A stretch of DNA of 7,782 nt from an uncultured Chlorobiota bacterium (GTDB lineage: Bacteria > Bacteroidota > Kapaibacteriia > OLB7), in contig CAMLOB010000162.1 of assembly GCA_946481475.1 (NCBI GenBank), positions 1 to 7,782 of the forward strand. The letters run 5' to 3'. A program made the position numbers and the translations under genes. Positions within the stretch are counted from its first letter, which is position 1. Each line of letters opens with the position of its first letter. The notes below the pieces were generated by a model that ran no database searches, was not told where the DNA came from, and saw only the letters and a list, made by a program, of their open reading frames with translations. This document shows positions 1,689-6,106 of this stretch, piece after piece.

Positions 1689-4619
1689 TCACGATGATGG
1701 GAGGCTGAAGATAAACCGGGCACCGTGACCCGGTCTGCTTTCGCCCCGAATTGTGCCGCCGTGCCTGTTGACGATGCGGCGTACCGTTGCCAGACCGATT
1801 CCCGTCCCCTTGAACTCCTCCTGGGAGTGGAGGCGGATGAATGGCTGGAAAAGATTTCCGGCATGCGACTGATCGAAGCCGGTTCCGTTGTCCTCCACCA
1901 CAAACTCAACCCTGTCGCCGGTGATCTCCCGGCGGAATGAGATCGCCGCATTCGGGGTGTGCCGACTGAACTTCCAGGCGTTCCCCAACAGATTCTCCAG
2001 CAAGACGCGCAGAAGGTGCGGGTCGCCGACCGTCGTCATCCCCTGCTCGATCGTGACATCGACGGTTCGTGCCGGATCATTCTCCCGAAGGGTCTCAACC
2101 ACGCTCTGTGCCAGAGCGCTCAGATCGATCTCCCGCCGATGCAGATCGGTTCGGGTCAGTCTCGAAAGATCAAGCAGTGCGCTGATCAGTTCCTCCATCT
2201 GAGCCACGTTCCGCGTGATCCGTTGCAGGTAGGCTTTCCCTTCTTCCCGGAGATCCTCCTCGCAATCTTCACCAAGAGCGTGAGCAAACCCGTTGATTGC
2301 CCGAAGCGGAGCCCGAAGATCGTGGGAGACGGCGTAGGAGAACGCCTCCAGCTCCTGATTGATGGCCTGCAGTTCCTGTGTCCGTTGCTCCACCCGCTCT
2401 TCCAGTCCCATATTCAGATCCCGTATCTCCTCCTCGGCTCTCTTCTGATCGGTCAGATCGAGAACGAAGAAGAGTTGTTTCCCTTCATCACCTTCGATGG
2501 CCGCCGCACCGACCATGACCGAGACCGGTGTGCCGTCCTTCCGGATGTAGCGTTTCTCGAACGGAGGGACCGAACCCTTGTCGCGCAACATCGTTACGGC
2601 CCGTTCGGTGGCGTTGTGGTCGACTTCCGGCGTGATATCCCAGAAGCCGATCCCCTTCCCCTGCAGGTCCTCCGGCGCATATCCGATGATCTCCAGAAAC
2701 CGGTCGTTTGCCTCAACGATCCATCCATCGGTTGTTGAGACTCCCATCCCGATGATTCCCGATTGCCAGAGTCTGTCGAAGAGCGATCTGCTTGCCTGAA
2801 GCTGTCGGATGGTCTGTTGCAGATCCTGATTCCTCCGGTTCAGTTCCTGCGCCATTTCGGCCAGGTCGTGCGACTGACTGAGGAGGACATCCTTGAGGTA
2901 GCTCCGTGCCTTGCTCGACTCTACCAGCAGTGCGATTCTCGTCATCAGTTCTTCCAGGACAAACGGTTTCTCGATATAGTCCTGTGCCCCTTCCCGCAGC
3001 AGTTCGATCCGCATTTTCTCCTCGCCACGAGCGCTCAGGATCAGGACCGGAATATCTTTCCATTCCTCTTCCTTCCGTATCCTCTCCACCAGTTCCTTCC
3101 CGTTCATGACCGGCATCATGACGTCGGTGATAACCAGATCAGGATGGGTTTTTCGCAGGACTTCAAGAGCTTCCTGACCATTTTGTACGTGGAGGACATG
3201 GTACTGCTCGCCGAGCGCTTCGCTGAGATACTGCGACATGTCCGGATTGTCTTCCACCAGAAGAATCGAAGGGCGACTCGGTTCTCCCCCCGGCAGGGGA
3301 GATGTGGGGATCGTCTTTGCCTTGTCGGAGGGGATCAGCGGCAGGGAGACTTCTTCGATCACTCTGATCTCCTTTGCGGTCGTTTCCGGCTGCCGGTCTA
3401 TTCGCTCCTCAGGCAGGAAGATGCGAAAGAGGGCTCCTCCTTCCGGAGCATCATCCACGGTGATCGTCCCGCCGTGCAGTTCGATCATCTCGCGGGCGAT
3501 CGCCAGCCCCAGGCCGGTCCCGGCTCTGTTTGTCGCAGTTGAAATGTTCCCCTGCTCGTACCGTTCAAACAGCCGCTCCCGATCTTCCGGTTTCACCCCC
3601 GGTCCGCTGTCGGCCACCTCCAGAAGAACGCCCGGCCCTGTTGACCGCAGAGAGATACGAACGTTCCCTCCCGCAGGAGTGAACTTCAGCCCGTTCGACA
3701 GAAGGTTCATCAGCGCGCGCTGCATCTTCTCCTGATCGATCATCACGATCAGCGGATCTTCGGCTTCCACCTGAAGACGGATGCCGGTCGTCTGTGCCAG
3801 CGTTTCCAGATTGGCCCCGATCAGACGAATTATTCCGGCCAGATCGACCGGTTCGGTCCGGAGCTCCATCCGGTCGGCCTCCAGCTTCGAGAGATCGAGC
3901 AGGTCGTTGACCTGATTGCGGAGCGACAGGGCATTCTGCAGCACACCCTGCAGGCGTTCCCGTTCCTTCTCATCGGTGATGCCGTTGTTCAGCATCCGTT
4001 CGATCGGACTGATGATAAGCGTAAGGGGAGTCCGGAGGTCATGGCTGACGTTGGCGAAGAAGCGGGTCTTGATGCTGTCCAGGTTCCGGATCTTTTCGTA
4101 GAGTTCCTGCAGTTCCGCGTTCCGCAGTTCCAGTTCCCGTCGTCGTTCTTCGGCAAGCCGCGCCTGGCGGGTCATGTTGATAATACGTGGGACCAATGGA
4201 GGGAGGGCGATTGCCGTGTAGACCGATGCCAGAGCCGTGATCCCCTTGACGCTCCCCGACATCCAGTAGACCGGTTCCCACAACGTCCAGACCTCCATGA
4301 AGTGCGTACCGCCGCAGGCGATGATAAAGATGCCGAAGGCCAGGATCATCCAGCCGTAGGGGATGGCGTCCCGGATGTTATACAGGAGATAGATCAGCGC
4401 CACCGATATGGCCACGTAGGAGAGACCGATCAGCATATCCGATCCGGCGTGCAGCCATACAAGTTCCGGTCGCCACAGATAACAATGACCGTGCGGCATG
4501 AATCCCCCGGTCTGAAGCAGGGGAGTCAGCAGAAGAGGGATCGCCACGATCAGCAGAATCGTTCCGAAGAGACCAAGGAGAATGGTCCGCCATCGTGTTC
4601 GTGAGGATTGTGTCGTCAT
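1689..4619 (-). CDS. Hybrid sensor kinase with ETR1-like ethylene-binding domain (TM-HK-REC-PAS-HK)
   Basis: This 976-residue inner-membrane hybrid kinase starts at ATG 4619 (MTTQSS) and ends at TGA. Seen, in order: an N-terminal hydrophobic helix at about 13-35; an ethylene-receptor-like three-helix domain at about 50-147; and a linker. Kinase core 1 has His193 in SHDLRTPL, an N-box with Asn305/Asn309, and GTGLGLAI. A receiver (about 453-568) has acidic Glu456/Asp457, phospho-acceptor Asp499 in ITDVMMP and Lys551. A PAS domain (about 610-722) and coiled coil lead to kinase core 2, with His766 in SHDLRAPL, Asn876/Asn880, DNGTGFD and GTGIGLAT. Asp61, Tyr68, Cys102 and His106 (in CGGTH) align with ETR1 Asp25, Tyr32, Cys65 and His69; Cys65 and His69 hold the Cu(I) that binds ethylene. 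The ETR1 Pro36 position is Ser72. Both kinase cores look intact, which suggests an internal phosphorelay. The Shine-Dalgarno sequence is poor. It lies between two other kinases on the same strand. Kinase and domain order are firm; ethylene sensing is inferred from homology. Confidence 0.95.
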   Translation of the reverse strand: MTTQSSRTRWRTILLGLFGTILLIVAIPLLLTPLLQTGGFMPHGHCYLWRPELVWLHAGSDMLIGLSYVAISVALIYLLYNIRDAIPYGWMILAFGIFIIACGGTHFMEVWTLWEPVYWMSGSVKGITALASVYTAIALPPLVPRIINMTRQARLAEERRRELELRNAELQELYEKIRNLDSIKTRFFANVSHDLRTPLTLIISPIERMLNNGITDEKERERLQGVLQNALSLRNQVNDLLDLSKLEADRMELRTEPVDLAGIIRLIGANLETLAQTTGIRLQVEAEDPLIVMIDQEKMQRALMNLLSNGLKFTPAGGNVRISLRSTGPGVLLEVADSGPGVKPEDRERLFERYEQGNISTATNRAGTGLGLAIAREMIELHGGTITVDDAPEGGALFRIFLPEERIDRQPETTAKEIRVIEEVSLPLIPSDKAKTIPTSPLPGGEPSRPSILLVEDNPDMSQYLSEALGEQYHVLHVQNGQEALEVLRKTHPDLVITDVMMPVMNGKELVERIRKEEEWKDIPVLILSARGEEKMRIELLREGAQDYIEKPFVLEELMTRIALLVESSKARSYLKDVLLSQSHDLAEMAQELNRRNQDLQQTIRQLQASRSLFDRLWQSGIIGMGVSTTDGWIVEANDRFLEIIGYAPEDLQGKGIGFWDITPEVDHNATERAVTMLRDKGSVPPFEKRYIRKDGTPVSVMVGAAAIEGDEGKQLFFVLDLTDQKRAEEEIRDLNMGLEERVEQRTQELQAINQELEAFSYAVSHDLRAPLRAINGFAHALGEDCEEDLREEGKAYLQRITRNVAQMEELISALLDLSRLTRTDLHRREIDLSALAQSVVETLRENDPARTVDVTIEQGMTTVGDPHLLRVLLENLLGNAWKFSRHTPNAAISFRREITGDRVEFVVEDNGTGFDQSHAGNLFQPFIRLHSQEEFKGTGIGLATVRRIVNRHGGTIRGESRPGHGARFIFSLPSS

Positions 4620-4825: not shown

Positions 4826-6106
4826 TTACGAGACGGGAATCCGGAAGCTGAACGTGGCCCCCTTCCCGGGAGAACCCTCTGCCTCGACCGATCCGCCGTG
4901 GCGGCGTATGATCCTGTCGACCGTTGCCAGTCCGATGCCGTGTCCGGTAAATTGATCGGAGGAGACAAGCCGCTGAAACGGTTTGAAGAGGAGTTCTTTT
5001 TCGGCGTTATCGAAACCGATCCCGTTGTCGTTCACGGTCACTGAAAGGGAACCGTCTTCTTTACAGCCCGTGATGTGAATCTCCGCCTGATCGGTCTTCT
5101 GCGTAAATTTCCAGGCATTCTGCAGCAGGTTCTCCAGGACGATGGCGATCATTCGTCGGTCGCACCGGGCCGTCAATTCGCCGGTAAGGCTCACGTTGAT
5201 ATTCCGGCTCGGATGTTCCGAGCGCAACTGCTCAAGGATCGTCGAGGCGATCTCCCGCAGATCCACTTCCTCAAGGTGCAATTCCTCCCGCGACATGCCG
5301 GCAAGTTCCACAAGGGCGTCGATCAGTTTGCTGCTGTTGGCGATAATGGTCTGAATACGCCGGATGTATCCTTGTCCCTCATCTCCCAGGTCTTTGCCGA
5401 AATCTTCAAGCAGAATACTGACGTAGCCGCTGATCGAACGGAAAGGCGTGCGGAGATCGTGCGAAACGGTATAGGAGAACGACTCGAGTTCCTCGAACGC
5501 CAACTGCAGATCCCGTGTACGGGCGGCTACCCGTTCTTCCAGTTCCTGATTCAGACTGCGGACACGGGTTTCGCTGCGGCGCAGTTCTTCCCGCATCTGA
5601 TAGGATTCGGTGATGTTGACGTGGGTAATGACCGCTCCGCCGTGATCGAATCGCAGAGGGGAGATCGTCACCATGAACCATCGCTTTTCGTTCGGTGCGT
5701 GGCAGGGATATTCCTTCGTATAGCGATCGATTTCCCTGTTGATGACCTGGCGCAATCCTTCGGCGATCTCTCCTGCGGCCTCCACATTGTGAATGTCGAA
5801 GGCCCGGCGGCAGATCTCCAGATAGTTCGTTCCCAGACCGTGCGTCGTCTCTTCATGCGCGTTCCGGTAGTTGTTCTCCTCGGCAAATTCGCGCCAGGCT
5901 GCGTTGACCGCCACAATCCTCCCCTCGGAATCGACGACGCAGACGTTCTCCGCAAGCGAGTCGAGTACGTCCTGCGCCGACACGGCCGGTGGCGGATATT
6001 GATAGGGGTCGGTAGCGGGTTCTCTCTGTTGCGACTCCTCTTGTTGTGGCTCCTCGAAATTCGATGTCTCTTCTGTCATTGGTCGGATCCGGTCATTTCT
6101 CGGCAT
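4826..6106 (-). CDS. Soluble PAS-domain sensor histidine kinase
   Basis: This is a 426-residue cytoplasmic sensor kinase with no hydrophobic segment long enough to span a membrane. Seen: a Glu/Gln-rich, probably disordered N-terminus (about 11-35); a PAS domain (about 44-168) with VVDSEGRIVAVN, a GTNYLEICR motif and a PAC-like end at THVNITE; and a heptad-rich coiled-coil linker (about 168-205). The HisKA H-box is SHDLRTPFR with His216, and the ATP-binding domain has NLLQNAWKF (Asn326, Asn330), NDNGIGFD and GHGIGLATV. It ends at TAA, IPVS being the last residues. The module matches the C-terminal modules of the two downstream kinases, so they look like paralogues. ATG 6106 is taken as start; an internal ATG at 6079 (MTEETSN) is an alternative, since neither has a strong Shine-Dalgarno sequence and both lie before the PAS domain. 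The gap to moaC upstream is 171 bp, so it probably has its own promoter. The signal and the partner regulator are unknown. Confidence 0.93.
   Translation of the reverse strand: MPRNDRIRPMTEETSNFEEPQQEESQQREPATDPYQYPPPAVSAQDVLDSLAENVCVVDSEGRIVAVNAAWREFAEENNYRNAHEETTHGLGTNYLEICRRAFDIHNVEAAGEIAEGLRQVINREIDRYTKEYPCHAPNEKRWFMVTISPLRFDHGGAVITHVNITESYQMREELRRSETRVRSLNQELEERVAARTRDLQLAFEELESFSYTVSHDLRTPFRSISGYVSILLEDFGKDLGDEGQGYIRRIQTIIANSSKLIDALVELAGMSREELHLEEVDLREIASTILEQLRSEHPSRNINVSLTGELTARCDRRMIAIVLENLLQNAWKFTQKTDQAEIHITGCKEDGSLSVTVNDNGIGFDNAEKELLFKPFQRLVSSDQFTGHGIGLATVDRIIRRHGGSVEAEGSPGKGATFSFRIPVS

Follow-up and report, generated by a model that had tools for sequence, protein, structure and literature searches.

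The 976-residue hybrid histidine kinase encoded in the window (the whole stretch of DNA analysed here, 7,782 nucleotides of contig CAMLOB010000162.1 from an uncultured Chlorobiota bacterium) begins with a membrane sensor domain that, judged by its sequence, is a member of the ETR1_N family and lies outside the branch that holds ETR1. At the position of ETR1 Pro36 the domain has Ser72, and this serine is the marker of a sister clade and no private quirk of the window's protein. The kind of domain is already known; the branch-wide replacement of the proline is the noteworthy part. The best explanation, which we hold with moderate confidence, is that the protein is a Cu(I) sensor kinase of this serine-type clade with an altered ligand. 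The domain is probably a Cu(I)-dependent sensor of a small ligand, and a physiological ligand other than ethylene, or ethylene bound with altered affinity, appears more likely than ethylene binding in the style of ETR1.

The sensor domain and its host kinase

The kinase gene occupies positions 1689 to 4619 on the minus strand, as defined by the open reading frame and Pfam. The domain order found by Pfam is ETR1_N sensor, HisKA/HATPase, REC, PAS and HisKA/HATPase, with two HisKA and two HATPase domains in all. A motif scan located H-boxes at residues 192 and 765, N-boxes at residues 305 and 876, two G-boxes and a receiver motif, DVMMP, at residue 499; the protein thus has the HisKA, HATPase and receiver domains of a hybrid histidine kinase together with the corresponding H-, N-, G-box and receiver motifs. 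A colinear relative of 971 residues (P0009) has the identical domain order and is 48% identical over 938 aligned residues; like the window's kinase, it has serine at position 72.

The ETR1_N profile (PF25487) matches residues 52 to 148 of the kinase (positions 4176 to 4466, minus strand) with an E value of 2.8e-34 and a score of 117.7 bits against a cut-off of 27, a resemblance far beyond chance. The initial annotation had recognized an ETR1-type domain here from the letters of the sequence, and the profile search bears this out, no unrelated sensor family being returned. The translated open reading frame and the alignment likewise place the key residues exactly where they had been described, namely, Asp61 (4437 to 4439), Tyr68 (4416 to 4418), Cys102 (4314 to 4316), and His106 (4302 to 4304), all on the minus strand and corresponding to ETR1 Asp25, Tyr32, Cys65, and His69, with the motif CGGTH spanning residues 102 to 106. 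Cys102 and His106, the presumed Cu(I) ligands of the second sensor helix, are both present in the window's domain and are kept in 189 and 190, respectively, of 192 aligned domains. The serine proposed at the Pro36 position is also confirmed (Ser72, positions 4404 to 4406, minus strand). The claim of ETR1-like spacing holds in part: the distance from Asp to Tyr is 7 residues, equal to that in ETR1 (D25, Y32), whereas from Asp to Cys the window's kinase, at 41 residues, has one residue inserted relative to the 40 of ETR1. Of the seven ETR1 residues required for ethylene binding, six have their counterparts in the window's domain (residues 61, 68, 71, 99, 102, and 106), and the remaining position, 72, is serine.

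Residues 1 to 158 were used as a query, and 417 of 2263 candidates were homologues at E ≤ 1e-3. Position counts were made on the best 120 of these 417 proteins, the window's own included; among them Asp61, Tyr68, Ile71, Cys102, and His106 are invariant, and position 72 is Ser in 113, Ala in 7 and Pro in none. An AlphaFold model built from a 61-domain alignment (mean pLDDT of 93) contains helices at residues 7 to 34, 43 to 47, 51 to 82, 89 to 112, and 118 to 157. The last three are the three predicted membrane helices by which Pfam describes ETR1_N, and the final one continues toward the kinase, ending at residue 157 ahead of the first H-box at 192. The model also predicts an extra N-terminal helix at residues 7 to 34 (positions 4518 to 4601, minus strand). 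Searches of the PDB for a solved relative gave chance-level matches by sequence (E values of 2 and 0.15) and a best E value of 2.7 by fold with Foldseek.

A serine-type branch of the ETR1_N family

A genome scan seeded with an alignment of the window's type yielded 80 loci, in which position 72 is Ser in 72, Ala in 5, Thr in 2, and Pro in 1. The family was then sampled more widely by Pfam-family searches in the two genome sets behind the seeded loci (9 and 10 genomes) and in six phylum samples. The resulting 212 loci gave 206 domain rows covering at least 60 profile positions, of which 190 are nonidentical; together with the window's domain and ETR1 they form a set of 192 domains. Since part of the collection was seeded with the Ser type, this type is overrepresented in the set, where position 72 is Pro in 87 domains, Ser in 80, Ala in 14, and another residue in 11.

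The tree of the 192 domains shows one split with a support of 0.993. The side with the window's domain holds 90 domains (Ser 77, Ala 7, Thr 3, and Cys, Pro, and Phe 1 each), and the side with ETR1 holds 102 (Pro 86, Ala 7, Ser 3, Val 3, Leu 2, and Gly 1). The two sides also differ in the distance from Asp to Cys, which is 41 residues in 85 of 90 domains on the window's side versus 4 of 102 on the ETR1 side, where 94 of 102 have a distance of 40. Other frequent differences in the Ser clade are Val or Leu at position 69 for Phe or Tyr, Ala70 for Ser, Ala94 for Leu or Met, Ala131 for Val or Ile, and Pro140. The putative copper ligands are retained in the window's clade (Cys in 89/90, His in 90/90), and Asp61, Tyr68, Ile71, Cys102, and His106 are near-invariant across loci of many phyla.

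Residue 72 is not the sole basis of the split. The same partition was still the best one after removal of columns 72 and 82 (77 of 80 Ser-type and 1 of 87 Pro-type domains on one side), with a support of 0.65 to 0.84; with columns 66 to 83 removed, the support was 0.96; and with all marker columns removed, the split weakened to 63/80 Ser-type and 0/87 Pro-type domains and a support of 0.29. In 200 shuffles of the labels, the best partition reached 104/167 versus 163 observed. Parsimony requires 10 changes to distribute Pro versus everything else on the tree, so single replacements at position 72 also occur. The residue had been described as a trait of one protein; its identity was correct, but it instead marks a sister clade in which several other positions differ as well. 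No published description of this clade was found in the available text of the literature searched, and an earlier notice is possible.

The clade also tends toward a particular architecture. H-box distances were counted with a fixed motif in the 190 locus-derived rows minus 23 with fewer than 250 further in-frame residues. On the Ser side, 47 of 75 sequences have their first H-box no more than 60 residues after the domain, versus 3 of 92 on the other side, and no H-box occurs in the available stretch in 18 of 75 and 58 of 92, respectively; short loci are frequent on the Pro side, where distant H-boxes are under-counted and near ones are unaffected. Members of the Ser clade thus often appear to couple the sensor straight to the kinase.

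Ahead of the first sensor helix, the window's protein has the short helix HGHCY (residues 43 to 47, positions 4479 to 4493, minus strand; alignment and model). HGxC at this place is conserved in ETR1_N domains of both branches, with H43 in 175/192 and C46 in 179/192 aligned domains. HGHC was considered as a special mark of the Ser clade and rejected, as it is equally common on the Pro side (H in 91/102, C in 98/102). A lone cysteine there in cyanobacteria may replace the disulphide cysteines of plant receptors, according to the accessible part of one report (PMC6682694). The motif bears on the idea that the protein reads copper status, with Cu(I) occupancy as the signal, no gas involved and HGHC aiding copper capture. 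Both sides of the split retain the copper ligands despite the changes at and around residue 72, and H43 and C46 occur without exception in the best 120 of the 417 homologues, as such a sensor would have it; however, the equal frequency of HGxC on the Pro side means that it marks no new role, and the P-type ATPase motif DKTGT appears in only two open reading frames of the 212 loci, one of them with CPx, in a search confined to these motifs and among flanks that are often short. We regard a copper-status sensor as quite improbable.

Distribution and genomic setting

Domains from the six phylum samples were classified by the distance from Asp to Cys, with phylum names taken from the record title of each sample center and a few rows being partial. 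A distance of 41 was found in 3/93 domains from Cyanobacteria, 2/18 from Bacteroidota, 2/2 from Chloroflexota, 6/11 from Acidobacteriota, 3/26 from Pseudomonadota, and 4/11 from Verrucomicrobiota, that is, in 20 of 161 overall, at most 6 of which come from sample-center genomes that were chosen for having such a domain. By this measure, the clade is a widespread minority. Classification in Cyanobacteria covered 93 of 108 listed matches, without the 15 lowest-ranking ones, which are weak or partial. Five of its seven Ser-type domains have a distance of 40, which indicates that Ser72 also arises outside the spacing-41 clade and that the two marks are separable; the Cys/His pair has no aligned counterpart in 9 of the 93, indicating that the copper site can be lost within the ETR1_N family. 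Among 10 cyanobacterial genomes selected for a Ser-type copy, 6 yielded copies of both types, Ser and Pro. Pro-type and non-Pro-type copies occur together in 9 of 44 cyanobacterial genomes, and ETR1_N matches number up to nine in some cyanobacterial genomes (G593).

Within the lineage of the window the domain appears to be rare. Genome G137 gave the best match to the window's MoaC in its phylum sample (73% identity), and the class that it would share with the window is assigned from this one gene. ETR1_N was found in 4 of the 197 genomes of that class, 3 of them above the cut-off; residue 72 is Pro in two of these domains (L095 and L218) and Thr in the third (L108), and the weak fourth match (L219) was not recovered by the profile used in the analysis. 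With so few ETR1_N domains in the class, and Pro or Thr at position 72 in the three recovered, the window's gene looks sporadic and was possibly acquired into its lineage.

The hybrid kinase gene is the middle one of three successive kinase genes on the minus strand of the window. A PAS histidine kinase (positions 4826 to 6106, Pfam) lies 206 nucleotides upstream, and a CHASE-domain histidine kinase (positions 1 to 1617, PF03924 with an E value of 2.9e-57), cut by the edge of the window, lies 71 nucleotides downstream. The window further encodes MoaC, CrcB, and a transketolase-like protein represented by its C-terminal part. Among the best 120 of 7704 MoaC matches, the top ones with an organism name belong to a Chlorobi bacterium (73% identity), a Bacteroidetes bacterium (69%), and Candidatus Kapaibacterium or Kapabacteria (67 to 68%), so that this one gene suggests kinship with Kapabacteria or Chlorobi-like bacteria. 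Compared by sequence, the CHASE domain matches the solved CHASE kinases 6k62 (E value of 5.4e-18) and 3t4j (E value of 3.1e-5), the latter being plant Histidine kinase 4, which we take to be the cytokinin receptor AHK4. Rfam gave zero matches in the window at gathering thresholds; promoter-like sites number 5 versus 2.3 (standard deviation of 1.5) in shuffled sequences, and terminator-like sites number 4 versus 7.0.

Related kinase modules are found at positions 1689 to 2420, 4826 to 5554, and 1 to 525, all on the minus strand. At its C-terminal kinase module the hybrid kinase shares 46% identity with the corresponding module of the PAS kinase, and over the 161 residues of the CHASE kinase included in the comparison the identity is 52%; these values suggest that one output module has been duplicated behind three different sensor inputs. 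The PAS domain and these neighboring kinases with related modules offer alternative inputs and would suit a structural remnant, that is, an ETR1_N domain that just anchors and dimerizes the kinase. Such a role is highly improbable in our judgment, as the near-invariance of the five residues named above across many phyla would be unexpected for an anchor. Beyond the sensor kinase of altered ligand that we favor, it may tentatively be suggested that the Ser branch forms a separate family of Cu(I) sensors, found across many phyla, whose small ligand would not be ethylene, and that the window adds a three-gene PAS/ETR1-like/CHASE array feeding one type of kinase module, in which sensors resembling ethylene and cytokinin receptors would stand side by side.

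A phmmer search with the window's CHASE domain found no CHASE beside ETR1_N in the open reading frames of the 212 loci, 63 of which are longer than 8 kb and 129 about 3 kb; since the flanks are short in most of them, the search establishes the pairing neither as conserved nor as unique. Among the recurrent flank genes of the 80 seeded loci, judged by eye from representatives, response-regulator-like genes occur at 30 loci and PAS or sensor-kinase-like genes at 26, followed by a group at 5 loci that looks like an ABC transporter ATPase. A conserved operon hinting at the ligand was sought and rejected, as the flanks of the 80 loci point to none.

The candidate ligand and comparison with known receptors

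In ETR1, C65 and H69 are linked with copper, and I35, P36, I62, C65, and H69 are named as essential for ethylene binding in the available text of one report (PMC6586836); the substitutions Y32A, F61A, I62A, C65Y, and H69A diminish binding according to another (PMC8879215, seen in part), and tomato Never ripe, in which ethylene perception is impaired, is a Pro36Leu change (PMC7285140, likewise in part). The three-helix membrane domain of the window's kinase most likely holds Cu(I) through Cys102 and His106, as conservation and the ETR1 precedent imply. Near the copper a small ligand would bind, for which a gas or an alkene is the best candidate. Compared with proven ethylene receptors, the putative pocket would be altered by Ser72 for Pro, Ala70 for Ser, Val69 for Phe or Tyr, and Ala94 and Ala131 for larger residues. 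Ligand binding would move the third helix, which is joined to the first kinase without a GAF or PAS domain between them, and the shift would alter autophosphorylation of that kinase; the phosphate may then pass to REC, which, together with the PAS input, would set the second kinase. The binding of ethylene or another small copper ligand put forward in the initial annotation is thus plausible as regards copper and a small ligand, the ETR1_N domain being genuine and its Cys/His pair kept; ethylene itself is a possible ligand.

A true ethylene receptor would tolerate Ser72 in its background and bind ethylene at Cu(I) as ETR1 does. The equivalents of ETR1 D25, Y32, I35, F61, I62, C65, H69, and K91 are all kept in the window's domain, and the pocket could be rebuilt by compensatory substitutions within the clade. 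Nevertheless, the standing of Pro36 among the essential residues, the Never ripe phenotype of its replacement, and the retention of all seven binding residues in the bacterial receptors described (PMC11819568 and PMC6682694, in their available text) weigh against this reading, which we consider rather unlikely. In our tree, the window's domain lies opposite ETR1, the only known proven receptor included. Bacterial ethylene receptors are predicted from the ETR1_N domain, and part of this annotation may be wrong if the copper ligands persist throughout a branch in which a residue that plants need for ethylene binding has been replaced. The Ser branch, whose ligand we favor as altered, would be a natural experiment on how a protein Cu(I)-olefin site selects its ligand, a type of site for which the PDB searches above gave no solved structure, and genomes with both types permit a direct paired comparison.

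Among the closest known systems are AzoEtr1 and SynEtr1, which, like the window's protein, are bacterial histidine kinases bearing an ETR1_N-type domain. Ethylene binding has been measured for the domains of both, produced as GST fusions in Pichia pastoris, and in cells of Geitlerinema and Synechocystis, and the seven residues required in ETR1 are kept in AzoEtr1, SynEtr1, and two Geitlerinema proteins, as far as the accessible portions of the two reports go (PMC11819568; PMC6682694). One such gene is described in Azospirillum brasilense Sp7 (PMC11819568), and the SynEtr1 gene is the only one predicted in Synechocystis (PMC6682694); with a single gene in each, the published tests, in the text available, seem not to cover the Ser branch. 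AzoEtr1 D35, C75, and H79 match ETR1 D25, C65, and H69 (PMC11819568, in part) and correspond to D61, C102, and H106 in the window's kinase; the distance from Asp to Cys, taken from the residue numbers, is 40 in AzoEtr1 versus 41 in the window's kinase. Compared by residues reported in the available text, AzoEtr1 and SynEtr1 keep the seven binding residues, whereas the window's protein has Ser72. With ETR1 itself, the window's domain shares, besides the kept positions listed above, the equivalents of T94, S98, and P110; it differs in having Ser72 where ETR1 has Pro36, an Asp-to-Cys distance longer by one residue, an extra N-terminal helix in the model, and no GAF domain before the kinase.
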